Shown: positions 7,730-35,337 of the stretch, in pieces
Position numbering within the stretch: position 1 is the stretch's first letter
Layout: the number at the start of each line of letters is the position of its first letter
Assembly: GCA_016195405.1 (NCBI GenBank)
Contig: JACPZP010000100.1
Coordinates: forward strand, 124,001-188,000
Direction of reading: 5' to 3'
Length of the DNA stretch: 64,000 nucleotides
Origin: Planctomycetota bacterium
GTDB taxonomy: Bacteria > Planctomycetota > Planctomycetia > Gemmatales > Gemmataceae
Notes under the pieces: model-generated
What the model saw: the letters and a program-made list of their open reading frames with translations, nothing else
Databases searched by the model: none
Told to the model about the DNA's origin: nothing
Program-made: the position numbers and the translations under genes

Positions 7730-8530
7730 ATGACTATGGCCACCGGCCGACTGGCAAATAAGCGCTGTCTGATCGCGGGCGGTTCCACGGGTCTCGGCTT
7801 GGCGGCGGCCCGGCGATTTCTTCAGGAGGGCGCGCGGGTCGTGATCGTCGGCCGCTCCGTGGAGAAAGGGGCGGCCGCGTTTGAATCCTTGCACACTGTG
7901 GGGCCCGTGCAGTTCTTTCCATGCGATGTGAGCGATCCCAAGCTCGTGGAACTCTTGTTTCAGGACAGCATCGCGCACTTGGGCGGGTTGGACGTGCTTT
8001 ACCACGTCGCCGGCATCAGCGGACGCCGCCAGGGCGACGGGCCCTTGCACGAATGCACCGAGGACGGCTGGCAGGCAACGATCGACGCCAACCTCAAGAG
8101 CGTCTTCTTGACCAACCGGGCGGCGCTCCGGCATTTCCTCGAACAGCGTCAAGGGGGCGTCATTCTCAACGTCGCCAGCGTCCTAGGACTTGCGCCGTCG
8201 CCCTACTACTTCGACACCGCCGCTTATACGGCCAGCAAGGGCGGCATTCTTTCTCTGAGCAGGCTGGCGGCGGCGCGCTATGCTCCGGACGGCATTCGCG
8301 TCAACGTGATCGCGCCCGGGCTGATCGATACGCCGATGGCCCAGCGCGCGGTCCACGAACCGGCGATCGCGGCATTCTTGAAGAGCAAACAGCCGCTCAA
8401 GCCCGGTCCGGGACAACCGGAAGACTGCGCCGACGCCGCCGTTTTCCTTTGCAGCGATGAGGCGCGCTTCATCACAGGCGCGGTCTTGCCCGTTGACGGC
8501 GGTTGGTGCGTGAGCGAAGGACAAGCTTGA
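7730..8530 (+). CDS. SDR-family NAD(P)-dependent oxidoreductase
   Basis: A 266-residue classical short-chain dehydrogenase. The Rossmann glycine motif is GGSTGLGLAAARRF near residue 16-29. The cofactor-discriminating strand VVIVGRS has Arg after Gly, favouring NADP(H). The N-AG motif appears as VAGISG. The catalytic Ser lies in NVASVLG and the YxxxK pair in YTASKGG, with the C-terminal PG motif in IAPGLIDTPM. Start ATG 7730 is used; ATG 7736 is an equal candidate. The substrate cannot be read from sequence: FabG-like ketoreductases and sugar or alcohol dehydrogenases share these motifs. It is followed by a palindromic element and RNase D. Confidence 0.85.
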   Translation: MTMATGRLANKRCLIAGGSTGLGLAAARRFLQEGARVVIVGRSVEKGAAAFESLHTVGPVQFFPCDVSDPKLVELLFQDSIAHLGGLDVLYHVAGISGRRQGDGPLHECTEDGWQATIDANLKSVFLTNRAALRHFLEQRQGGVILNVASVLGLAPSPYYFDTAAYTASKGGILSLSRLAAARYAPDGIRVNVIAPGLIDTPMAQRAVHEPAIAAFLKSKQPLKPGPGQPEDCADAAVFLCSDEARFITGAVLPVDGGWCVSEGQA

Positions 8531-8554
8531 AATAAAGTGGTCCAGCATTAGCCC

Positions 8555-8621
8555 GTAGCCGCATTCGCCGGAATGCGGGCATTCCGCGGGCGACTCCCCG
8601 CATTCTGGCGAATGCGGCTAC
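8555..8621. repeat. Palindromic intergenic element (25-bp arms)
   Basis: Arms at 8555-8579 and 8597-8621 are reverse complements with one mismatch in 25 (GTAGCCGCATTCGCC...), around a 17-nt spacer. It lies between the SDR stop (8530) and the RNase D start (8654) and would fold into a strong RNA hairpin. No U-tract follows, so a role as simple intrinsic terminator is doubtful. It resembles dispersed REP-type repeats. Confidence 0.85.
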
Positions 8622-8653
8622 AATTCGGCTACAACGTGCTAACTTTACAACAG

Positions 8654-9880
8654 ATGGAAGAGCCGAAACAGATTCTGATCTCAGATCCAAAGTCCCTCGC
8701 TCAATGTTGCGATCATCTGCGCCAGTGCCGGCGCTTCGGGTTCGATACCGAGTTCATCGGCGAAAAGAGCTACCATCCGGAATTGTGCTTGATCCAGGTC
8801 GCCGCCGCCGACACGCTCTACTTGATCGATCCATTCGCCTTCGACTCTCTGGAACCGTTCTGGAATGTCGTCGTCGACCCGGCCATTCAGGTAGTAGTCC
8901 ACGCCGGCCGCGAAGAAGTGCGGCTCTGCCATTATTGGAGCGGGCAGACGCCGGGCAATTTGTTCGATCTGCAAATCGCGGCCGGCCTTGTCGGTCTGCC
9001 TTATCCGCTCGGGCACGGGTCTTTGGTTGCGCAGGTCTTAGGCGTCAAGTTAGGAAAAGGTGAAACGCTGACCGCTTGGAACACACGCCCTCTAACCGCC
9101 GCGCAGGTTCAATACGCATACGACGATGTTCGATATTTGCTGCCGCTTTGTCAGGAATTGGGGTCGCGTTTGGAGCTTATGGGCCGCGGCGCCTGGGCGG
9201 AGGAGGAGTTCGCCCGCCTGAGAAGCCAATCTACGCCGGACGAGGACGGCCTCGCGGTCAATGCCGAGAAATGGCGGAAGCTGAAAGGATCAAGCTCATT
9301 TGAGCGGCGCCGCCTCGCCGTCCTGCGTGAGTTGTTCTTCTGGCGCGAGCGCACGGCCCTGGAGGTGAATCGGCCGCCGCGCACCGTGGTTCGCGACGAT
9401 CTTCTGGTCGAGATTACGCGCCGCAATCCCAAGAGCGTGAAAGACTTAATCCCTGTGCGCGGCCTGGCGAAAAGACACCTCGAAGACATCTTCCGCGCTG
9501 TCGAAGCCGGCCGGGCCATACCGCCGGAGGAATGCCCCGAGCCATTCCGGCGCGACGAAGATCCGCCACAAGTGAGCCTCGCGGTCAATCTGTTGGCGGC
9601 GAACTTGGCGTACCTGTCGGCCAAACACCAGATTGCCGGCAACCTCATCGCCACGACGGGCGACCTGAAAGCCCTGGTGCGGTCGCACATGCAGAAAGGC
9701 GAAATTCCCACCGCGCGAACTCCGGTCGCTAACGCTCCCGGCTCGCTTCTCAGTGAAGGTTGGCGCCGCACGCACTTTCTGCCGCAGCTAATTGCGATGT
9801 TGGAAGGACGAATGGCGCTGCGGCTTGGCGATTTGAGTAGCGAGACGCCGGTGGAAGTATTCGAGCTAAAGGACGGCTAG
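8654..9880 (+). CDS. rnd: Ribonuclease D-like 3'-5' exonuclease with HRDC domain
   Basis: The start is set at ATG 8654 (MEEPKQILIS); upstream in-frame codons run through the palindromic element and are unlikely to be translated. The DEDD exonuclease domain spans about residues 5-200: motif I FDTEFIGEKSY (D31, E33), motif II HAGREEVRL (around residue 83) and motif III YAYDDVRYLLPL. In motif II the usual aspartate is glutamate (E88). An HRDC domain follows at about 215-310 (FFWRERTALEVNRPPRTV, VKDLIPVRGL). Residues about 356-365 (TPVANAPGS) are encoded by a palindromic repeat shared with 43036-43064, apparently inserted in frame. Family role: 3' trimming of tRNA and other stable RNA precursors. 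Confidence 0.9.
   Translation: MEEPKQILISDPKSLAQCCDHLRQCRRFGFDTEFIGEKSYHPELCLIQVAAADTLYLIDPFAFDSLEPFWNVVVDPAIQVVVHAGREEVRLCHYWSGQTPGNLFDLQIAAGLVGLPYPLGHGSLVAQVLGVKLGKGETLTAWNTRPLTAAQVQYAYDDVRYLLPLCQELGSRLELMGRGAWAEEEFARLRSQSTPDEDGLAVNAEKWRKLKGSSSFERRRLAVLRELFFWRERTALEVNRPPRTVVRDDLLVEITRRNPKSVKDLIPVRGLAKRHLEDIFRAVEAGRAIPPEECPEPFRRDEDPPQVSLAVNLLAANLAYLSAKHQIAGNLIATTGDLKALVRSHMQKGEIPTARTPVANAPGSLLSEGWRRTHFLPQLIAMLEGRMALRLGDLSSETPVEVFELKDG
9718..9746 (+). repeat. Repeat half-element inserted in frame in rnd
   Basis: This segment (ACTCCGGTCGCTAACGCT... ending GGCTCGC) matches the right arm of the palindromic element at 42996-43064 with one difference over 28 nt. Here it is translated as TPVANAPGS within RNase D, in a region where the family has no conserved residues. 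The matching left arm is absent, so it is a half-element or a decayed copy. Confidence 0.8.
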
Positions 9881-13100: not shown

Positions 13101-14949
13101 AAACCCGGAACTGCGCCTCGACGCGTTGCTCGAAGGTTCGTCTTTGCGCTTCCTTATTGGTCTCTTCCTGAATTGCGACGATTATGCTCGTTTGTTCGGC
13201 TTTGCGCTGCTTGATATTCCGGCCCTGGATCGAGGCTTCGCGCAGGCCGGTTTCGAGGCGCGACAAAAGGGCGCCGCGAACGCGCTCGCTGAGATCGGGG
13301 TGATCGGTGACGCGGGAGAGAGTGACACGCAGCAGCTCGAGGGCGCCGTCAGGGTCGTTGCTCAATTCCTTGCGGGCTTGGCGAAGATTGGCGTCCACGA
13401 TTTGTGACAGTTTTTGCTCTTCAATGATCATGCGGTCGCGGTGGGCCTGCAGGAGATCGTCGCCGCGATTGGGCTGGCCCGCGCCGGCCCCTGCTTTTGG
13501 ATCCTGCTCGAGCTTCGCGATCTGGGTCAATTCGGTCGCGGTCCAGCGGACTACGCCGTTGATCTTCTGGATCTTCTGGCCTTTGCGGCTGACCTTCTCG
13601 GCCTCTTGGATCATCTCGCGGGTAAGCTTGCCGCTCTTGAGATTGGAAACAACCTTGGTGCCCGCGGCCGCTTCGGCATCGTTCGGATCGATCCGCAGAG
13701 CGTCTGCATAGAGCGCCAGGGCCGCTTGCAGCTCGTTTTTTTCGATAGCGATCTGGGCGGCAAGGAGCTGTTCTTGACGGTAGAGCCGGGTCTGTTCGAA
13801 AGCGAAGGCGAGTGCGCGGTCGGCGCGGATCATCGCAGGCTGGGCCTTGGCCCGAGCCCACTGCGTGAACATGCTGTTGAGGAAGTAATTGTCCAGCTCC
13901 GGGTCCGGCACCTTGTGCTCGGCAACTGCAATGAATTGGCCGGCGCCGCCCGGAACTTCACCGGAGACGCTGTACTTGATCGTGGCGGCTTGTTTCATGC
14001 GACCGACGACCAAGGTCGCGGCGTCGCTGCGCAACGGCGGCAGCTGGTGCGGGTAGGCCTCGATGATCTCGGGTGGCAGCGTAAGCTTGGCGCCGTACAT
14101 CACAGGAACGTCGAACGCTTTATGAAAGCGCTCTACCGCAGTTTCGAAAGGCTCTTCGCCGACTTTGACGCGGAGGACCGAGCCGCCAGTGCCGGTGGCG
14201 AAGCCGTGCAAGTTTTCGGGATTCAGATTGATGCCCAGCGGGACCGAAAACAGGCTGATTCTCGCGTCGACCATGTCCTTGTTGAGGTTGTTGCGGTCCA
14301 GGGTGGTGACAGGATCGTGGGTGCTTTGACCGTCGCCAAGGAACAGCAAGATACGCTGCCGCTTGGGGGCGCCGTCAAAGGACTTGATCGCTTGCGCAAT
14401 GCCGTGCTTGAGGTCGGCGGTGCCGCCGGCCCACTCCTTGTTGGCCAGTTCGTCGAGCGCTCGGACCAGCTTGCTAGCGCCGGCGGCGTCTTGCGGGGAT
14501 ACGAAGCCATTGGTCAAGCACCTGGTGGCAGCCGGCGTGCTGGCCACCCAGATGGAAATCTGGTCGTCGTGTTTGGACTTCTTGGCATCCTCAAAGAGCT
14601 GCTTTGCGATTTGCTGTGAGGCAATCCAAGGCTCGCCGGCCTGTCCCGCGGAAGCCGAGATCATTACGAGATAATCACGGCTGCGGCGCGTAGCCGGCGC
14701 CTCGAGTTTGGGTTGCACTTGGAGAGCGAAGAGATTGTCGCCCTTCAAGGTGCGATAAGTGACCATGGCGCCGTGAGCGAACTTCGATTCGGCCAGCGCG
14801 CTTTCGGCGGGTTGGAGTTGAAGTTGGGAACGAGCCGCTGGGAGTTGCTTGGACGCGGGCGGATCGCCACCCCAGATACGAGAGGAACTCACGAGAGCCA
14901 AGAGGCCGAGGACGCCCAAGACCCCCAAGAGCCGGCGCGAAATGGTCAT
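10105..14949 (-). CDS. Giant exported VWA/TPR protein with STN-like module and Gly/Gln-rich linker
   Basis: A 1614-residue protein with a hydrophobic N-terminus (LLGVLGVLGLLALVSSS) that serves as signal peptide or anchor. Residues about 90-260 form a von Willebrand A-type domain (YLVMISASAGQAGEP in the MIDAS strand position, LLFLGDGQSTHD later); the first MIDAS motif, normally DxSxS, is degenerate (SASAG). TPR-like helices follow (ALALYADALRIDPNDAEAAA), then a coiled coil. An STN/secretin-N-like segment (TYLIRRNFIEITTNERQ, then RVYPVGDLV) ends near residue 855. Residues about 860-1005 are Gly/Gln/Phe repeats. The C-terminal third carries more TPR text and a strand-rich domain (LELEVKEPAGS, GDYEITVRRNW) reminiscent of DUF2135. 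The role is unknown; a cell-envelope scaffold is inference. Confidence 0.8.
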   Translation of the reverse strand: MTISRRLLGVLGVLGLLALVSSSRIWGGDPPASKQLPAARSQLQLQPAESALAESKFAHGAMVTYRTLKGDNLFALQVQPKLEAPATRRSRDYLVMISASAGQAGEPWIASQQIAKQLFEDAKKSKHDDQISIWVASTPAATRCLTNGFVSPQDAAGASKLVRALDELANKEWAGGTADLKHGIAQAIKSFDGAPKRQRILLFLGDGQSTHDPVTTLDRNNLNKDMVDARISLFSVPLGINLNPENLHGFATGTGGSVLRVKVGEEPFETAVERFHKAFDVPVMYGAKLTLPPEIIEAYPHQLPPLRSDAATLVVGRMKQAATIKYSVSGEVPGGAGQFIAVAEHKVPDPELDNYFLNSMFTQWARAKAQPAMIRADRALAFAFEQTRLYRQEQLLAAQIAIEKNELQAALALYADALRIDPNDAEAAAGTKVVSNLKSGKLTREMIQEAEKVSRKGQKIQKINGVVRWTATELTQIAKLEQDPKAGAGAGQPNRGDDLLQAHRDRMIIEEQKLSQIVDANLRQARKELSNDPDGALELLRVTLSRVTDHPDLSERVRGALLSRLETGLREASIQGRNIKQRKAEQTSIIVAIQEETNKEAQRRTFEQRVEAQFRVYKSLMWLARVEEKTKHDLIYALEGMAADARLKNQPIPVVAKAAYDQTLAGYNLRKQQDLKRLREERFLAVYLEVEKSHVPYPDEPGIYFPPLATWKAIRDIRKGQYEVSSLPDDPVGLKEAKQIEKYLSEKVEMKDFLNPMTLKEALGLLYEKFQAKNMELPILIDSAAFKEENPDAPDIYEASVKFQPFPKWMPAATFLRLALSQVPTNNATYLIRRNFIEITTNERQARQKVLRVYPVGDLVIPISQTGGQSNFFQGGGGFQGQIGFGGGGFGGQIGGQIGGFGGGFGGQIGGQIGGFGGQFGAGGFGGQFGAGGFGGQFGAGGFGGQLGQFGAGGFGGGNFGQFGAAGAGAFGFGSIGGFQGVPGSFQGGSFQGGFNGSLGALGASQAVSLISTITKVVAPGEWFVTQQPNPFQQNVFFPFGGGVGAGGQFGNMGGMFGMMGGGPPPVPVSEGGPADIREANTIEFFPPALALIVRGTSRIHTSLTGGIIGGKQKRVEGAWLDGGRGLDVIGGKGEIKVAGNGGGNNPKVLKNANQVVKIDPKAKPKEVLDPTKIWNEALAKEGVDPGVIVATADFLFEAGKFDHAAEFLKANLRKGIVVRPWVYEALAVALEASNGDKEEIRRARLSAVALDPKDAQGFLEAARTMAEHKQFDRALAFCRQAAQLEPNLAQPYTEALVYAGADFGKDAKAMEWAVGRLVSQDWPTDNLTLHTKAHDLLKDLTRTLAKENRQTEADRLNQALTQLKQRDLMVNLTWETPAGETADLELEVKEPAGSTCSSRQHQTPGGGTFLGTDLLHMTKASYIAAQAFVGDYEITVRRNWGQPLGNRARLEIIQNYGTAKEVKRLEIVRLDQKQSIKVHLASGRRTELATVPPPAQPKQAAKEQTTTNPLVRLRELAHPDFSGGAGPRGGAGTPNAVIPNSVIPTGPSTGAKAKEAPTYQSQMTSLNSSAMNMTAQVRLSGGNANLVLQPVFQTVGNGSRPAVNLPLIPGANP
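12080..12195 (-). repeat. 27-nt tandem repeats encoding QFGAGGFGG
   Basis: Copies of a CCGCCGAAGCCGCCGGCGCC-initiated unit start at 12080, 12116, 12143 and 12170; the last three are exactly 27 nt apart. On the coding (minus) strand they encode GGFGGQFGA-type repeats. Flanking GGQIGG repeats (about 12200-12300) are shorter and related. Such near-identical units are prone to slippage, so repeat number may vary between strains. Confidence 0.85.
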
Positions 14950-25471: not shown

Positions 25472-25516
25472 GCTTGACGTCTAACGCTTTTGCATCTCAT
25501 CTCATTGGAGCGCACC

Positions 25517-25588
25517 ATGACTCGCACCATGACTCGCACCATGACTCGCACCATGACTCGCACCATGACTCGCACCATGACTCGCACG
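25517..25588 (+). repeat. Six 12-bp tandem repeats (ATGACTCGCACC) at the S10 peptidase start
   Basis: Six in-frame copies, the last ending CACG, encode (MTRT)6. Each copy starts with ATG, so each carries a potential initiation codon. A GGAG ribosome site at 25507-25510 points to the first ATG (25517). Changing the copy number would alter N-terminal length and charge without shifting the frame. Confidence 0.95.
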
Positions 25589-27088
25589 ATGACGGCATGT
25601 TTCCTAATAATTGCCCTCGCCAACGGCAGCATCGCCCAGGAAGGCAAGGACGCCAAGGAAAGTAAGGATGCCGCCTTGCGCCTCAAAGAGCAAGCGGTCA
25701 AGACCAAGCACTCAATTCAGCTCGGCGGCCAGAAGCTCGAGTACGAAGCCACCGCCGGCACGATCCTACTTAAGGAGGAAGAGGGCAAGCCGATGGCCAG
25801 CTTCTTCTATGTCGCCTACACGAAGCTCAACTCAGACCTCGCTAAGCGGCCCATCACGTTTAGCTTCAACGGCGGCCCCGGCTCCTCCTCCGTCTGGCTG
25901 CACATGGGCGCTTATGGTCCCAAGCGCGTGCTTCTGTCCGACGAGGGCGAGGCCCTGAAACCGCCGGCGCGCATCGTCGATAACGAAGGCTCGATCCTCG
26001 ACGTCACCGATCTCGTATTTATCGATCCAGTCAGCACCGGCTTTAGCCGCGCCGCAGAGGAAAAGGACGCCAAGAAATTCCATGGCGTCGAAGAGGACCT
26101 GCAAGCCGTCGGCGAGTTCATCCGCCTGTACTCCACGCGCAACGGCCGCTGGCAATCGCCCAAATACCTTTCGGGCGAAAGCTACGGCACCACCCGCGCC
26201 GCCGCCCTGGTGCAGCAGATGCAGAGCCGGCACGCCATGAGCTTCAATGGCGTCATCCTGGTTTCGGCCGTCCTCAACTTCGAGACCATCGCCTTCAACG
26301 ACGGCAACGATCTGCCCTACCCACTCTTCCTGCCCGGCTACACTGCGACGGCCTGGCATCACAAGAAGCTGAGCCAGTCATTTCCAAGCGATCTGAAAAC
26401 CATGCTGGCCGAGGTGGAGAAGTTTGCCGTCGAGGAATACACGGTGGCCCTCATGAAAGGCAGCACGCTATCAGACGCAGAACGCCAGAACGTCGCCCGC
26501 AAGCTCGCGTTTTTCACGGGCCTTTCGGAGGACTACATTCTGCGGGCCGATCTCCGCATCGACGGCCAACGCTTCATGCGCGAGCTGCTCCGCAAGGACG
26601 GCGCCACCGTCGGCCGCTTCGACAGCCGCTACGCGGGCAAATCCGGCAACAACAACGCGGAGCGTCCCGACACCGATTTCAGCTACCATGCCGTACACGG
26701 GCCGTACAGCACCGCGCTGCAAACCTATCTGCGCCAGGACCTGAACTTCCAGAGCGATCTGCCCTACGAAATTCTCACGGGCCGGGTGCAACCGTGGAAC
26801 TACGGCGCTGCCGCCAACAACCGCTACCTGAACGTCGCTCCGCGGCTGCGCGACGCCATGACGGCGAACAAGTATCTGCGCGTGTTCGTGGCCAACGGGT
26901 ATTACGACCTCGCGACACCCTATTTCGCCACTGAGTACACCTTCAACCACCTGGGCGGCGACAAATCGCTGTCCGAGCGCGTGACCATGGGCTTCTACGA
27001 AGCCGGCCACATGATGTACACGCACCGGCCATCGCTGCGGAAGCTGCGCGAGGATTTGACCAAGTTCTACGGGTCGGGAACGAATTGA
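25517..27088 (+). CDS. Exported serine carboxypeptidase (S10 family)
   Basis: A 523-residue alpha/beta-hydrolase-fold peptidase. The N-terminus is (MTRT)6 followed by the hydrophobic core ACFLIIALANGSIAQ, so the repeat supplies the positively charged n-region of the signal peptide. Family landmarks: SFNGGPGSSSVWLHMGAYGP (oxyanion region), DPVSTGFS, nucleophile Ser in GESYGTTRAAAL, Asp in NGYYDLATPY, and His in EAGHMMYTH. S10 enzymes release C-terminal residues from peptides at acid pH; bacterial ones are usually periplasmic. The length is usual. The start is chosen at the first repeat ATG, which has the only ribosome site; ATG 25589 would leave a signal peptide with no basic residue. Confidence 0.9.
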   Translation: MTRTMTRTMTRTMTRTMTRTMTRTMTACFLIIALANGSIAQEGKDAKESKDAALRLKEQAVKTKHSIQLGGQKLEYEATAGTILLKEEEGKPMASFFYVAYTKLNSDLAKRPITFSFNGGPGSSSVWLHMGAYGPKRVLLSDEGEALKPPARIVDNEGSILDVTDLVFIDPVSTGFSRAAEEKDAKKFHGVEEDLQAVGEFIRLYSTRNGRWQSPKYLSGESYGTTRAAALVQQMQSRHAMSFNGVILVSAVLNFETIAFNDGNDLPYPLFLPGYTATAWHHKKLSQSFPSDLKTMLAEVEKFAVEEYTVALMKGSTLSDAERQNVARKLAFFTGLSEDYILRADLRIDGQRFMRELLRKDGATVGRFDSRYAGKSGNNNAERPDTDFSYHAVHGPYSTALQTYLRQDLNFQSDLPYEILTGRVQPWNYGAAANNRYLNVAPRLRDAMTANKYLRVFVANGYYDLATPYFATEYTFNHLGGDKSLSERVTMGFYEAGHMMYTHRPSLRKLREDLTKFYGSGTN

Positions 27089-30527: not shown

Positions 30528-31796
30528 TTATTTCTCCAACAGGCTTCCCAGTTTCTCGCGGAGTTGCTCTTCGGCGGCGGGCGACCAAGCGAAGGGATCG
30601 GCGGGGACGAAGCCGCCTTCGCTGTTGAAAGTGGCGCTGGAGGCTGGAGCCAGAGGCAAGACACCGAGCACTTGCTTGCCCAGGCGCAGCTCGAACTGGC
30701 GGACCTGCTCCAGCTCGGCCATGTCGAGCGTTCCGGGGACGAAGGGCACGGGGCCATCGCTGATCAGCACTTCTTGCTCCTGAAGGAGCGGCGGCTGGAC
30801 GGCGCCTTTCACCAGGGCACGCACCTCAAAAGCGCATACACCCGCCATGCCTTGCTCCGTGCTGGAGATGAGGAAGCACGGCCCGGCGCGGCAGATGTTT
30901 TTGCCCTCCGACAAGATTCGCTCCATGCGCAGAACTCCCTTGCCGTCCTGAACCACGAAGCGGGTGGAAGCCAGCCTCAGCGAGCGCTGAAACTGCGTCT
31001 TGGAGATCGCCCGGATTTTGTGCGTGGCCAGCGGCATGTCGTCGGCCAGCCACACAATCTCCCAGGCGCCCAGTCGGCGCGGACGCGGAAAACTGGCGCT
31101 CACCAGCGCCTGGCGTGACGCCAATTGCGTGGCGGACAGGTGCAGCGGCACGCATTTGACGACGTCCCTATCGGAAGAGTGCCATGAGGCGCTGGGCGAT
31201 GAGGAACTGGGCGATGAGGCGCCGTGCGCGCGCGCGTTATGAGAGTGGATGCGGCGCAACTGCACGCGGAGGCCGCAATCAAGAATCGGCGCCAGGCTGG
31301 TGCCGCTCTCTAAAACCGCGGAGATCACCAGGCCCTGGCATTGGCTGCCCACAAACGTGCGGCAGGCCACGGTCTGATCGCCCAGCCGGACGCCGACCGT
31401 CGGCAGCTCGAGCGACAGTTTCGCCAGGAAGTCGGCCTCGTCGATGACGGGCAAAGTCACCTGCCCGAGCGAACGTTCGCGCCAACACAATTCCGCCAGA
31501 GTTGTGGTCGCCGGCGCCGGGACCCGAAAGGACACGCGCACGCTGTCCGGTTCTCCGGTCTCCGTCCAGGATTCCGGAGGGATGTCGTTCTTGCGTCCCC
31601 CCAGCCGAAGAGAGAATTCCGTGCGGCTGCGTGGCGTCTGCTTGGGGAAGTGAACGGTGCCGTGGACGCAGACCGCTTCGGCATTCCAGGGGATGGGCTC
31701 GTTGGCGAAGGACAGGCCGGCCTTATCCCAGGCGTAATGCAACGAATCCGGCTGGGGGCCGCCGCCGTGCCGGAAGAGTGGCCAGAAATCACGCAT
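30528..31796 (-). CDS. Unknown protein encoded at the end of the E1/E2/JAB operon
   Basis: A 422-residue protein not assigned to a family. Its ATG overlaps the E1 stop by 8 nt (ATGCGTGA), so it is translationally coupled and almost certainly part of the system. The sequence is mostly strand-rich without signal peptide or membrane helix. Segments such as TEFSLRLGGRKND, SVRVSFRVPAPATTTLAEL and GAWEIVWLADDMPLATHKI suggest repeated beta-sandwich domains. A low-complexity Ser/His/Ala linker lies near residues 185-205 (ASSPSSSSPSASWHSSDRD). The C-terminus is AAEEQLREKLGSLLEK, with no di-glycine. It could be the conjugation target, a recognition factor or effector; this is inference only. Confidence 0.75.
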   Translation of the reverse strand: MRDFWPLFRHGGGPQPDSLHYAWDKAGLSFANEPIPWNAEAVCVHGTVHFPKQTPRSRTEFSLRLGGRKNDIPPESWTETGEPDSVRVSFRVPAPATTTLAELCWRERSLGQVTLPVIDEADFLAKLSLELPTVGVRLGDQTVACRTFVGSQCQGLVISAVLESGTSLAPILDCGLRVQLRRIHSHNARAHGASSPSSSSPSASWHSSDRDVVKCVPLHLSATQLASRQALVSASFPRPRRLGAWEIVWLADDMPLATHKIRAISKTQFQRSLRLASTRFVVQDGKGVLRMERILSEGKNICRAGPCFLISSTEQGMAGVCAFEVRALVKGAVQPPLLQEQEVLISDGPVPFVPGTLDMAELEQVRQFELRLGKQVLGVLPLAPASSATFNSEGGFVPADPFAWSPAAEEQLREKLGSLLEK

Positions 31797-32619
31797 GGCC
31801 GAGTCGCGCTAGGGCTTGATCCAGGGCGTCATCGAGGTTCTCGGGCGTACTCGGAGCCGACCGGCAAATCAAGCAGTTGGCCGATCGGGCAATGCGGAAG
31901 CGATAGGGGCGATACGCCTCGTCAAAAACGTCAGGAACTTTTTCCAGAGTGAGAAGCAGACTCGTGAACCCCGGTTCGAAGGGCTGCGAAGGCGCGAGCG
32001 CCAGGTTCGCCAAGAGAGCGAGGGTTAACTGCGCGTGCAAACCGGCGATCGCTCCTATTGAGGCTTTGCTCGCTGGAACGGTGACCTCATGAACCGCTCC
32101 TCCCGGCTGGGAGTAATCGGGCGCTTTAGGTTTATCGACGGTGACGCTGCGCTGCAAATGGCCGGCGACGCATCCATAACAAGGTCCGCCGGGCACGAAC
32201 CAATGGACGAAACCGCCGATGCCGCCGCTCAAGACTTCGCCCAAGGTCCAAGGCTTTTGGTGACGGCGCATGAGGGCATCCCAGTGGAACTTGGCCGGCT
32301 CGGTGTCCACGGCGCAGATGCCCAAGTCCGCCGCCGCCGCCGCATCCTCAATGTCGTTGGCCGCCTTCGAATCGAACAGGTCGACTTCGAGGACATGAAT
32401 CTCTAGGTCCGGCCTGCGTTCCCGGAGCCATTGTTCCGCGAGCCGGGCTTTGCTTTGGCCGACGGCGGACAACGGAAAGAGATGCCGCGCCACATTGTGC
32501 GGCTTATAGACATCGGGCTCGATAAGGGTCACGCGGCCGACGCGTTCGTCGCGGCAAACCATATCGAGCACCGGCATCCCGCCGCTGCCCGCGCCGACCT
32601 GGATGAGGTGATACATCAT
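31789..32619 (-). CDS. E1-like ThiF-family adenylating enzyme of a ubiquitin-type operon
   Basis: A 276-residue single-domain E1/ThiF/MoeB fold. The ATP site is VGAGSGG (G9-G14), with EPDVYKPHNVARH (D36, N42, R45) as the conserved Asp/Asn/Arg elements, GQSKA (K57) and ICAVDTEP (D105). A structural zinc site is present as C147xxC150 and C249xxC252. Between the cysteine pairs there is no other Cys, so the transthiolation cysteine found in ThiF and canonical E1 is missing at its usual place. Helix SIGAIAGLHAQLTLALLANL matches the E1 C-terminal helix. Its start overlaps the E2 stop (ATGA). It would activate a C-terminal carboxylate by adenylation; the acceptor thiol might be that of the E2. Confidence 0.9.
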   Translation of the reverse strand: MMYHLIQVGAGSGGMPVLDMVCRDERVGRVTLIEPDVYKPHNVARHLFPLSAVGQSKARLAEQWLRERRPDLEIHVLEVDLFDSKAANDIEDAAAAADLGICAVDTEPAKFHWDALMRRHQKPWTLGEVLSGGIGGFVHWFVPGGPCYGCVAGHLQRSVTVDKPKAPDYSQPGGAVHEVTVPASKASIGAIAGLHAQLTLALLANLALAPSQPFEPGFTSLLLTLEKVPDVFDEAYRPYRFRIARSANCLICRSAPSTPENLDDALDQALARLGHA

Positions 32620-33041
32620 TTCGCCTCAGGCAATGGCCAGTCGCCGGTTTCGTGCCATATCTCGTAACAAGCCAGCCAGCGCCAGGCGGCCTGAATGGCG
32701 AAGACGCACGTGAATTTGCCCGGATCCCAGCGGCTCGTCTGCCGGGTGCTTCCTTGCCGCCACAAGCACAACGTCTGCCCTTCCAGCATGTGCGGACAAG
32801 TCTTGAGATACGTGAGCACGCGCGTCTCCGGCGGCACCATGGGATAAGTCGACAAGAGCCGCGTCTCCAAGTCATAGGCGTTGTGCATCGGTTTGAGCCG
32901 ATAACCCAGGGCCAGGGAGTTCCCCTGGCGCGCGACCCGAATCTTGAACTCCGGGTCGCGGTCCTGGTTATAGCGCTCGATGACCGGAATCTCCACGGTC
33001 AAAAGGCGGCGCTTGCCGGTTTCGGTGTCGAGAAGGCCCAT
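32616..33041 (-). CDS. E2-like (UBC-fold) conjugating protein
   Basis: A 141-residue protein with the E2 pattern. After an N-terminal helix and strands (FKIRVARQGNSLALGYRL) comes YPMVPPETRV, equivalent to the YPxxPP loop. It is followed by HMLEGQTLCLW (H84, catalytic candidate C92) and WDPGKF (W105), matching the eukaryotic HPN...G.ICL...W.P layout. The C-terminal helix WRWLACYEIWHETGDWP resembles bacterial E2-like proteins of CBASS and Bil-type loci. It is 4 nt after the 60-residue gene and overlaps the E1 gene by 4 nt. The role is to carry the activated polypeptide as thioester. Assignment is by motif order, not by search. Confidence 0.85.
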   Translation of the reverse strand: MGLLDTETGKRRLLTVEIPVIERYNQDRDPEFKIRVARQGNSLALGYRLKPMHNAYDLETRLLSTYPMVPPETRVLTYLKTCPHMLEGQTLCLWRQGSTRQTSRWDPGKFTCVFAIQAAWRWLACYEIWHETGDWPLPEAK

Positions 33042-33045
33042 CTTT

Positions 33046-33228
33046 TCAATAATGACAGGGCACGGATTTGATCGCGGAGATCACTTCGTCGTCCGTGATT
33101 TCCTCGGTCGTGCCCGCAAAGCTGGTGTCGCGGCGGTCGAGGAGGATGGCGGTATTCTTCTCCGCGTTGCCGCGCAAGGCGCCGATGAGCTGGCGGCGTT
33201 CCGTGTCATTGAGTGGCCGAAAATCCAT
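33046..33228 (-). CDS. 60-residue acidic protein of the E1/E2/JAB operon
   Basis: A small gene with a good ribosome site (GAAGGGAGACGATC before ATG 33228). It is followed after 4 nt by the E2 gene and sits 40 nt after the JAB gene. The sequence reads MDFRPLNDTERRQLIGAL at the N-terminus and ends EEITDDEVISAIKSVPCHY. It is too short for a typical beta-grasp fold and lacks a C-terminal Gly-Gly. The N-terminus is probably helical. It could be a target or degron-like substrate of the operon, an adaptor, or a highly reduced modifier. No homologue was recognised. Confidence 0.7.
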   Translation of the reverse strand: MDFRPLNDTERRQLIGALRGNAEKNTAILLDRRDTSFAGTTEEITDDEVISAIKSVPCHY

Positions 33229-33268
33229 GATCGTCTCCCTTCCCCTTGGAAAGAAAAGTTCTGATACG

Positions 33269-34273
33269 TTACTTCACACTTCGTGCCGCCTCCCGTGCGA
33301 GTTCGGCGAGAATTAAGTACACCGCTCGGTCCACCGGTTCCTCTTCCGGATCCACGGCTCTAACGGCGCCATCCTCCTCCACGAGAAAGCGCGCCTCTTC
33401 GCCGTCGAGGACGATCCGAAGGTAGCTCTTGGGCGCGGCGAGCGGCAATCGCAAGGTCAGGTCTTTCTCGTTTGCCTCGAAGACCACGCTGGCTTGTTGG
33501 CGGCAAAGGCGGTCGAGCGGTCCCGCATGGCGCTCCAATATGTGCCAAAGCGGATGAAGCGGGCGGGCCAGGTCGGGGCCCAGCGTCATTTCCACCGGAA
33601 GTTTGCGATAACGCTCATCATTCTTGCAAAGAGCGTACCAGGTGAAGCACATATCGCCCATGATCTGGCGATGGATCTCGGGCTTTTGCAGAATGCTAAA
33701 ATCCGGGTTATTCTCCACGTCGGCCGTGCCGATGCCGAAGACGCCGTCGCCGCCGCGAAGCTGTCCGACCCACTGGCTGTCGCCTTGATAATCGCTGTCG
33801 CTGGGATGCCGCAGGCTGCCTGGATGCGTGTGAAAGACGCCGAGCAGCACCAAACGCTTGTCCCATTGACGGACAATGCGGCTGGCGATCGCCTGGGCGT
33901 TGCTGTTGAAGCGAATATGAGCGACGCCCGCGCTGCGCTGCGTGCCAGCGGGCAAGGTTGCCAGCGCCACCGCCTCGGTCTCCTCGCGCCGGCCTAGAAT
34001 CACCCAACCGATTTCCTCATCGCCGCGCGCGCCCGTGCGATGCTCGGCATATTCTTCAAACAAAGTGCGGCAGACTTGATCGGTGATGACAAGACGTTCG
34101 AGCCGATTGTATGATCGTGGAGAAGGAGGGCCGAGCAATTCCACAGAGGGAAGGCCGTCGCCCTTGAAAGAGTGGTTCCAATCCACCAGGAACCGCCGCG
34201 CCGTGCTGACCAGGGCTCGCAACATCCTCGCCCTCCGCGACGGAAGCCCAACCGGCTTCCCTGCCTGCCTCAT
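33269..34273 (-). CDS. JAMM/JAB-domain metalloprotease (deubiquitinase-like) of a ubiquitin-type operon
   Basis: The start is ATG 34273, which has a GGAGG ribosome site 8 nt upstream; in-frame starts at 34291 and a TTG at 34315 are less likely. This gives 334 residues. After a basic N-terminal region, the MPN/JAB domain spans about 60-220. The zinc site is complete: acidic residue in DEEIGWVILGR (E86 or E87), H148-x-H150 in VFHTHPG, and S158-x-x-D161 in HPSDSD, i.e. HxHx7SxxD. A further C-terminal domain (about 230-334) is strand-rich (ANEKDLTLRLPLAAPKSYLR). It is the first gene of the operon. Expected role: removal or processing of a conjugated C-terminus. Confidence 0.92.
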   Translation of the reverse strand: MRQAGKPVGLPSRRARMLRALVSTARRFLVDWNHSFKGDGLPSVELLGPPSPRSYNRLERLVITDQVCRTLFEEYAEHRTGARGDEEIGWVILGRREETEAVALATLPAGTQRSAGVAHIRFNSNAQAIASRIVRQWDKRLVLLGVFHTHPGSLRHPSDSDYQGDSQWVGQLRGGDGVFGIGTADVENNPDFSILQKPEIHRQIMGDMCFTWYALCKNDERYRKLPVEMTLGPDLARPLHPLWHILERHAGPLDRLCRQQASVVFEANEKDLTLRLPLAAPKSYLRIVLDGEEARFLVEEDGAVRAVDPEEEPVDRAVYLILAELAREAARSVK

Positions 34274-34342
34274 CTGAACCGCCTCCATCATAGCCAGGGA
34301 GCTGCGTCCTGTCAAAGACAGTAGTCGGCTGCGTCTGGAGTC

Positions 34343-34385: not shown

Positions 34386-34405
34386 GTCAGGAATGGAATC
34401 CTGAC
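34386..34405. repeat. Palindromic repeat overlapping the mmuM stop codon
   Basis: Inverted arms GTCAGGA/TCCTGAC around ATGGAA. Read on the minus strand it encodes the last residues of MmuM (GFHS) and its TGA stop. A repeat insertion has probably replaced the native C-terminus end. Confidence 0.65.
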
Positions 34406-35337
34406 CTACAAGCCTTTGCGATCGCGCGGATCGTGTCGGGCGTCGTTCGACAACAACCGCCGATGAGCCGCGCGCCGGCGTTGTGCCAGCGCTTGGCGGC
34501 CGCGCCCCAATCGAGCGGGTCGGCGCCGTCGATCCAGCAGCGTCTTTCGGCGTCCCAAGATTCGCCGCTGTTGGGATATGCCAAGAGCGGCTTAGATGTG
34601 ACGTTGGCCAGCGAACGCAACAGCCCCTCCACGAAACGAGGCGGCGTGCAGTTGATCCCGACCGCGACGATGTTCGGCGATTTGGCAGCGACCGCCACGC
34701 ACGCGGCCAGCGTCTCGCCGTGACAGACGTGACGCTCATCGCGGCAACTAAAGCTCATCCAAGCCGGCGTTTCGGGAAACTCCTCGAGCAAACGCTCCAG
34801 CGCCTCGGCTTCCGCCCGGCAGGGAATCGTCTCACACGCAATGAGATCCGCGCCGCTCTCGGCCAACACCTGTAGTCGCGGCCGATGCCAATCACGAAGC
34901 TGGGCCATGGACAAGCCGTAATCGCCGCGGTATTCCGAGCCGTCGTGCAGCGTCGCTCCGTAACAGCCGACGGACGCGGCAACCAGCGGTCGCGGTGAAC
35001 AATTCGTGCGATTCGCCAAGAACTTCTCCCGCGCCTCCTGGGCGAGGCGAATGCTGAGCCGCATCAAATCGGCAGCCTGCTCTCGATCCAAGCTGCGCCG
35101 GGCGAATCCTTCGAAGCTCGTCTGATAGCTGGCGGTGGTGATGACGTCGGCGCCGGCCTCGAGATAATCGAGATGTACCTGGCGGATGAGGTCTGGATTC
35201 TCCAAGAGGAGCTTAGCGGACCAGAGGGGATCGCGCAAATCGGCTCCGCGGCGTTCCACCTCCGTGGCGAGTGCCCCGTCGAGAATCACGAATTCTTTGC
35301 ACTCGAGGAACGGTTGGAGCGGATTGTTCATATTCAT
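34387..35337 (-). CDS. mmuM: Homocysteine S-methyltransferase
   Basis: A 316-residue Pfam S-methyl_trans protein. The N-terminus [18 protein letters not shown] matches the family opening (LDGGLxTxLE..G). Zinc-ligand cysteines appear in GINCTPP and [14 protein letters not shown]. The pattern [30 protein letters not shown] is highly conserved. It transfers methyl from S-methylmethionine or SAM to homocysteine to make methionine, independent of B12. Tandem ATGs at 35337 and 35331 are both possible starts. The stop falls in a palindromic repeat. It is upstream of the JAB operon on the same strand but has no evident functional link. Confidence 0.92.

Follow-up and report, generated by a model that had tools for sequence, protein, structure and literature searches.

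The 60-residue protein encoded at positions 33046–33228 (minus strand) of the analysed DNA (a stretch of 64,000 nucleotides from a Planctomycetota genome, hereafter the window) is an obligate, adjacent partner of an E2-like enzyme and is co-inherited with this E2, an E1-like enzyme and the product of a further gene, termed gene D. Based on our findings we put the probability at roughly 0.55 that this 60-mer is the modifier of a dedicated conjugation cascade of the Gemmatales, with a fold other than β-grasp and with a terminal Tyr. The protein would then probably represent a novel type of ubiquitin-like tag that has been drawn into the conflict between viruses and their hosts.

The gene is part of a compact operon on the minus strand with the order JAB, 60-mer, E2, E1 and gene D. 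The initial annotation had described the open reading frame as a small gene with a strong ribosome site, enclosed by a JAB and an E2 gene at distances of 40 and 4 nt, and all of this was confirmed. The reading frame (product MDFRPLNDTERRQLIGALRGNAEKNTAILLDRRDTSFAGTTEEITDDEVISAIKSVPCHY) is preceded by a purine-rich, Shine-Dalgarno-like GGGAGA 5' of its ATG (33234–33239, minus strand), similar sites are found upstream of nearly all homologues, and the gaps to the JAB stop and to the E2 start comprise 40 nt (33229–33268) and 4 nt (33042–33045), respectively. The JAB/JAMM peptidase (33269–34315, minus strand) matches Pfam Prok-JAB (7.4e-10) and has a C-terminal extension of ~150 residues. The E2-like protein of 141 residues (32616–33041, minus strand) is detected by the PADLOC E2 model (E=7e-10) and weakly by UQ_con and Prok-E2_B, and the E1/ThiF-like protein of 276 residues (31789–32619, minus strand) by Pfam ThiF (2.3e-17). 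Gene D (30528–31796, minus strand) encodes 422 residues, and the E2/E1 and E1/D gene pairs each overlap by a few bases. A candidate operon promoter, i.e. a match to the sigma-70-like consensus (TTGACA-17-TATGAT), is located at the 5' end of the JAB reading frame (34287–34315, minus strand). As it coincides with the annotated, uncertain TTG start and as conservation of JAB begins only around residue 70–80, the true JAB start probably lies downstream. Upstream of JAB the window contains a homocysteine S-methyltransferase gene (34387–35337), which adjoins the operon in several other loci, too.

Both E1 and E2 score with the PADLOC CBASS E1/E2 models. In the E2 alignment Cys92 (codon 32766–32768, minus strand), which according to the E2 motif is the presumed catalytic residue, and His84, located eight residues upstream, are both invariant (22/22 each), i.e. 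by sequence the E2 possesses a catalytic cysteine. UFC1 is among its weak matches. The E1 alignment shows invariant ATP-site residues (G9xG11, D36, N42, R45, K57, D105), marking the enzyme, as far as can be judged from its sequence, as competent for adenylation, and its nearest relatives of solved structure are UBA5 (E=5e-9), MccB (E~1e-7) and MoeB; UBA5 and MccB adenylate C-termini. Invariant cysteines of E1 are limited to C102 and the conserved Zn tetrad C147/C150/C249/C252. C102 occupies what we take to be the position of the DCTDN cysteine of MoeB/ThiF, next to the adenylation Asp, and thus E1 has no recognisable thioester cysteine. JAB contains a conserved JAMM motif (H162-x-H164-x7-S172-x2-D175). 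Gene D belongs to no Pfam family; its AF2 model consists of tandem β-sandwiches (pLDDT 86.3), for which Foldseek returned distant Ig-like tandem proteins (best E 4e-5, low TM-score).

The relatives of the window's genome are Gemmataceae/Gemmatales planctomycetes according to their record titles, and 32 of the 59 contain full-length 60-mer homologues with 53–85% identity. Throughout the order the 60-mer is present in 73 of 102 genomes, and the E1 and E2 profiles match the same 73, the E2 profile giving one additional weak, partial match in G006. Genomes without E2 lack the other genes of the system as well. Gene D is also found in 73 genomes, being missed once, where the contig ends within the operon, and gained once, as a fragment. 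JAB is encoded in 52 of the 73 system-positive genomes and in none outside them; of the 21 genomes devoid of it, 16 belong to genus g17, whose system-positive members all lack the gene, and 5 do not. In 64 named loci, which were fetched independently by E2 alone, the 60-mer gene is located immediately 5' of E2 in every case, so that it is never absent from syntenic operons; absence from most of them would have refuted the initial annotation. The neighbourhood conserved across these loci consists of only five genes. Moreover, E1 together with D, or JAB, has been relocated in several genomes while the 60-mer and E2 genes remain adjacent, defining 60-mer plus E2 and E1 plus D as tight pairs. The 60-mer, E2, E1 and D form one functional unit with JAB as an accessory. 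Besides the window's own copy no homologue of the 60-mer was detected in 392 genomes of the phylum, i.e. outside the order, none was found on plasmids, and a stand-alone copy was never encountered in the bacterial genomes searched. In genus g17 (e.g. G446 and G462), about half of the system-positive members match the E1 profile over no more than its first ~205 positions, which suggests an altered C-terminal part of E1. Three genomes of this genus (G449, G450, G453; G450 is only 65% complete) are without E1, E2, D and 60-mer, and the system has seemingly been lost there as a whole.

Among 61 aligned 60-mers the hexamer of lowest entropy is the C-terminal SVPCHY (residues 55–60; codons 33049–33066, minus strand), with a mean of 0.17 bits as compared to 1.31 bits for residues 7–52. 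The initial annotation had proposed to test whether the last residues are more conserved than the rest, and this is the case. S55, V56, P57, H59 and Y60 do not vary at all and residue 58 is C, V, S or T. His and Tyr occupy positions 59 and 60 in 61/61 sequences and Gly occurs solely inside optional extensions, so a terminus without Gly-Gly, initially noted for the single sequence with its SVPCHY end, is a feature of the family, which lacks the C-terminal Gly or Gly-Gly of ubiquitin-like modifiers. The codons of the invariant tail residues make use of many synonyms, and we thus attribute the conservation to selection and not to recent ancestry. The N-terminal MDFRPL is the second-lowest hexamer (0.25 bits) and nearly as conserved as the tail, and consequently conservation alone does not single out chemistry at the C-terminus. 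The 61 sequences contain no invariant lysine or cysteine (K54 is K, R or Q, and the others vary), and there is thus no support for an acceptor lysine or for Cys58 acting in metal binding or as a thiol. We also considered SVPxHY as a common leader or tag in bacteria of the order and rejected this, since an exact degenerate DNA pattern gave a single match per genome in 61 genomes, in each case the operon copy. Control patterns gave no matches, and leaders of looser sequence might escape a pattern as strict as this one. A motif profile run over the 392 phylum genomes gave weak partial matches only, apart from the window's own.

At 12 of the 64 loci the protein continues for 1–6 residues past HY (A, G, AG, AGV, AGI, KL, GR or AVVSGQ). 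All 12 are among the 48 JAB-containing loci and none among the 16 JAB-less ones (Fisher p=0.028, phylogeny ignored; independent events are few, with some 7 lineages bearing tails and a small number of JAB losses). Confinement of the extensions to JAB-containing genomes is the pattern expected of a precursor that is trimmed by JAB.

The AF2 model based on the 61 sequences (pLDDT 86.6, pTM 0.59) comprises a helix (residues 8–24), two strands (27–30 and 37–41) and a second helix (46–54), followed by an extended tail. The fold is thus predicted to be α-β-β-α, a compact body with a free tail, which agrees with the earlier view that the protein is no β-grasp domain. Such an architecture, if the model is correct, would speak for a modifier. 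Foldseek searches of the model against PDB and BFVD yielded no match at E<=0.001, profile matches in the PDB were all weak and looked like chance, Pfam, NCBIfam and PADLOC hold no family for the 60-mer, and comparison of the 61 members with Pfam remained at chance level.

Copies of the 60-mer also occur in phages. LR756511.1 (595 kb) is the sole record of a phage collection with a homologue, a stand-alone copy (L117:12001-12183) of the form MEFRPL...AIKSVPVHY with its own Shine-Dalgarno-like site and with phage-type neighbours, i.e. DNA ligase, sigma factor, ParB and ADP-ribosylglycohydrolase; no E1 or E2 homologue was detected in this collection. IMG/VR contributes three more stand-alone copies on contigs L119 (33 kb), L120 (235 kb) and L121 (47 kb; tail SVPCHYGSV). 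L120 and L121 carry phage-type genes, whereas L119, having no PHROG support, is less certain. When viral contigs were scanned with E2, none was detected on these three (operon genes were examined within the fetched stretches). In total, the 60-mer stands by itself on four phage contigs, with bodies that are about 54–72% identical to the nearest host copy and with the SVP[CV]HY tail intact. A 9.9-kb IMG/VR contig (L116/L118) that carries the JAB-60-mer-E2-E1 operon is probably bacterial and was set aside.

In another phage contig, IMGVR_UViG_3300032893_000179, which encodes terminase, portal, major head protein and head protease, the element formed by helix 2 and the tail is found near the N-terminus of four proteins (L122:7884-8480, 8492-9094 and 13413-14441; L124:8007-8900), where leaders of about 49–58 residues end in a motif similar to [ST]DxEVxxAI[KR][ST]VPxH[YFH] and are followed by unrelated bodies. 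A fifth such protein (SVPEHY-ATARYQ) is located on contig 3300047160_003073 (L123:1-1302). The bodies that were tested have no PHROG matches, and we refer to these proteins as structural-region proteins because their genes are surrounded by those for head and tail. The underlying pattern scan of viral contigs also produced several unrelated chance frames. Phages thus possess the 60-mer, or just the C-terminal half of it, but not the enzymes. This suggests that the tail element is the part recognised by the host enzymes and that the pathway is involved in the conflict of phage and host, in which phages may use the element as decoy, for hijacking or as cleavable leader. On contig IMGVR_UViG_3300032893_000179, an intein-like (Hint) segment seems, by eye, to split a head-morphogenesis-like protein (L124:11124-13211).

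The initial annotation had proposed the 60-mer as a modifier or target. The proposal gains from the inseparability of the 60-mer from E2 and E1, from the constrained tail and from the phage copies that retain it, but the CBASS precedent on which it drew is weaker than stated (see below). We tentatively envisage a dedicated E1/E2 pathway in which the α-β-β-α 60-mer is activated via its C-terminal Tyr by an E1 without thioester cysteine and which is exploited by phages, some carrying the modifier alone and one fusing the C-terminal element to several structural-region proteins as a leader that is cleaved off or serves as decoy; we rate this full scheme slightly below an even chance. In our preferred reading of the 60-mer as modifier, E1 would adenylate the tyrosine carboxylate, and the acyl group would be passed to Cys92 of E2, probably straight from the adenylate, a route we propose because no thioester cysteine is recognisable in E1. 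E2 would then attach the modifier to its targets, with the Ig-like D protein possibly acting as adaptor or scaffold. JAB would trim the C-terminal extensions of those precursors that have them, may remove the tag again, and would be dispensable where the 60-mer gene already ends at HY. Against a modifier stand the bulky C-terminal Tyr, which is unlike known substrates of ubiquitin-type E1 enzymes and of a kind that Cap2 of CBASS rejects, and the lack of a recognisable catalytic cysteine in E1. Instead of an E1 thioester, either an MccB-like direct use of the acyl-adenylate or a direct transfer from E1-AMP to Cys92 of E2 would have to be invoked.

Several known systems share single traits with the Gemmatales operon. 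Pup/UBact is a modifier of about 60 residues without β-grasp fold, and Pup, which is disordered, is ligated by PafA via a C-terminal Glu/Gln; the Gemmatales 60-mer, in contrast, is linked to E1 and E2 genes, is predicted to be folded and ends in HY instead of a GGE/GGQ-type terminus. MccB, which the E1 profile matches, also has the ThiF fold and adenylates the C-terminus of a peptide that does not end in Gly; its substrate MccA, a heptapeptide, is the precursor of an antibiotic, and no E2 takes part in the reaction. The UFM1 pathway (UBA5-UFC1) resembles the Gemmatales system in its minimal E1, the UBA5 family providing the nearest solved structure, but UFM1 is a Gly-ended β-grasp protein and the catalytic cysteine of UBA5 is not recognised in the Gemmatales E1.

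In type II CBASS, Cap2 (E1-E2) and Cap3 (JAB) act on the C-terminus of the cyclase, a non-β-grasp protein without Gly-Gly (PMC10097602, PMC11153139), and it was from this conjugation that the initial annotation had concluded that no Gly-Gly is needed. The argument holds as far as a non-β-grasp substrate without Gly-Gly is concerned. It fails, however, for the last residue, which in Cap2 substrates must be Gly, with Ala tolerated, as Ser, Val, Arg and Trp abolish conjugation (PMC10097602). Thus, CBASS does not by itself predict the Tyr end common to all Gemmatales 60-mers. Further differences from type II CBASS are the separate genes for E1 and E2, an E1 in which no thioester cysteine is recognisable, the absence of a CD-NTase cyclase or effector (five genes recur in the 64 loci, and D has no Pfam match), and inheritance throughout the order, as is typical of housekeeping loci. 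Bacterial operons for ubiquitin-like proteins (rows 6a-6e of Iyer et al. 2006; Bil; Bub) are similar in that they combine compact E1/E2/JAB genes with a small protein in the position of the ubiquitin-like protein. Row 6d, with standalone E1, E2 and JAB plus a small gene, has a similar layout, but encodes an α-helical protein and a β-grasp protein whose terminal Gly is conserved, whereas the Gemmatales operon encodes the Tyr-ended α-β-β-α protein of 60 residues and the Ig-like D protein; the word planctomyc* is absent from the main text of this paper (PMC1779556). E2-type enzymes in Planctomycetes were reported earlier (Arcas et al. 2013, as cited in PMC5493775). A description of a 60-residue modifier of this kind or of its phage copies was not found in the literature searched.

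The main rival to a conjugated modifier is a non-covalent cofactor, i.e. a small E2- and/or E1-binding subunit whose MDFRPL and SVPxHY ends dock into conserved pockets and which positions E2 or a different modifier without ever being conjugated. The fact that it is E2 which the gene adjoins in 64/64 loci, conservation of both ends, and a Tyr terminus combined with an E1 devoid of a recognisable thioester cysteine, both unusual for a modifier, would fit such a subunit. We nevertheless consider it unlikely, as no other candidate modifier is conserved among the five recurring genes and as C-terminal extensions and stand-alone phage copies are explained more easily by a processed modifier. Similarity of E1 to MccB (E~1e-7) would also be compatible with a RiPP-like precursor, from which an MccB-like E1 activates the C-terminal Tyr or a short peptide and JAB releases it, yielding a small molecule or redox cofactor. 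The extreme C-terminal conservation resembles that of core peptides, and the -CHY/-VHY end is reminiscent of Tyr-ended precursors such as MftA. This is improbable, however, in view of a 60-mer predicted to be a folded domain with conserved N-terminus, of 64 loci without any further conserved biosynthetic or maturation gene, and of the 21 genomes that lack JAB but keep the remaining genes; moreover, we know of no dedicated E2 in RiPP pathways.

The obligate linkage to the enzymes could alternatively mean that the 60-mer is their main substrate, a dedicated target modified with another, unlinked modifier, and the copies of the element close to the N-termini of structural-region proteins of phages might then mimic an acceptor. 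As the 60-mer has no invariant lysine, which makes a lysine acceptor unlikely, and as no β-grasp gene is conserved nearby, we regard this as slightly less probable again. Finally, small size and the lack of a Pfam, NCBIfam or PADLOC family are what a passenger, e.g. a small regulator or a toxin/antitoxin-like gene co-transcribed by chance, would show, but the perfect co-occurrence of 60-mer, E1 and E2 over 102 genomes, even where E1 and D are unlinked, and the fact that the 60-mer is never alone in the bacterial genomes searched render this very improbable.

If the cascade indeed operates in this way, E1/E2 chemistry would require neither the β-grasp fold nor a glycine at the end, not even where the modifier is a dedicated one, and this would bear on the origin and diversification of ubiquitin-type conjugation. 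With five small genes, inherited across an order with cultured members, the system is directly testable, and the phage copies provide a natural handle on its function. Elsewhere in the window, a carboxypeptidase-like reading frame (25490–25600) begins with an N-terminal run of RTMT repeats, and its start may have been wrongly placed within a tandem repeat.
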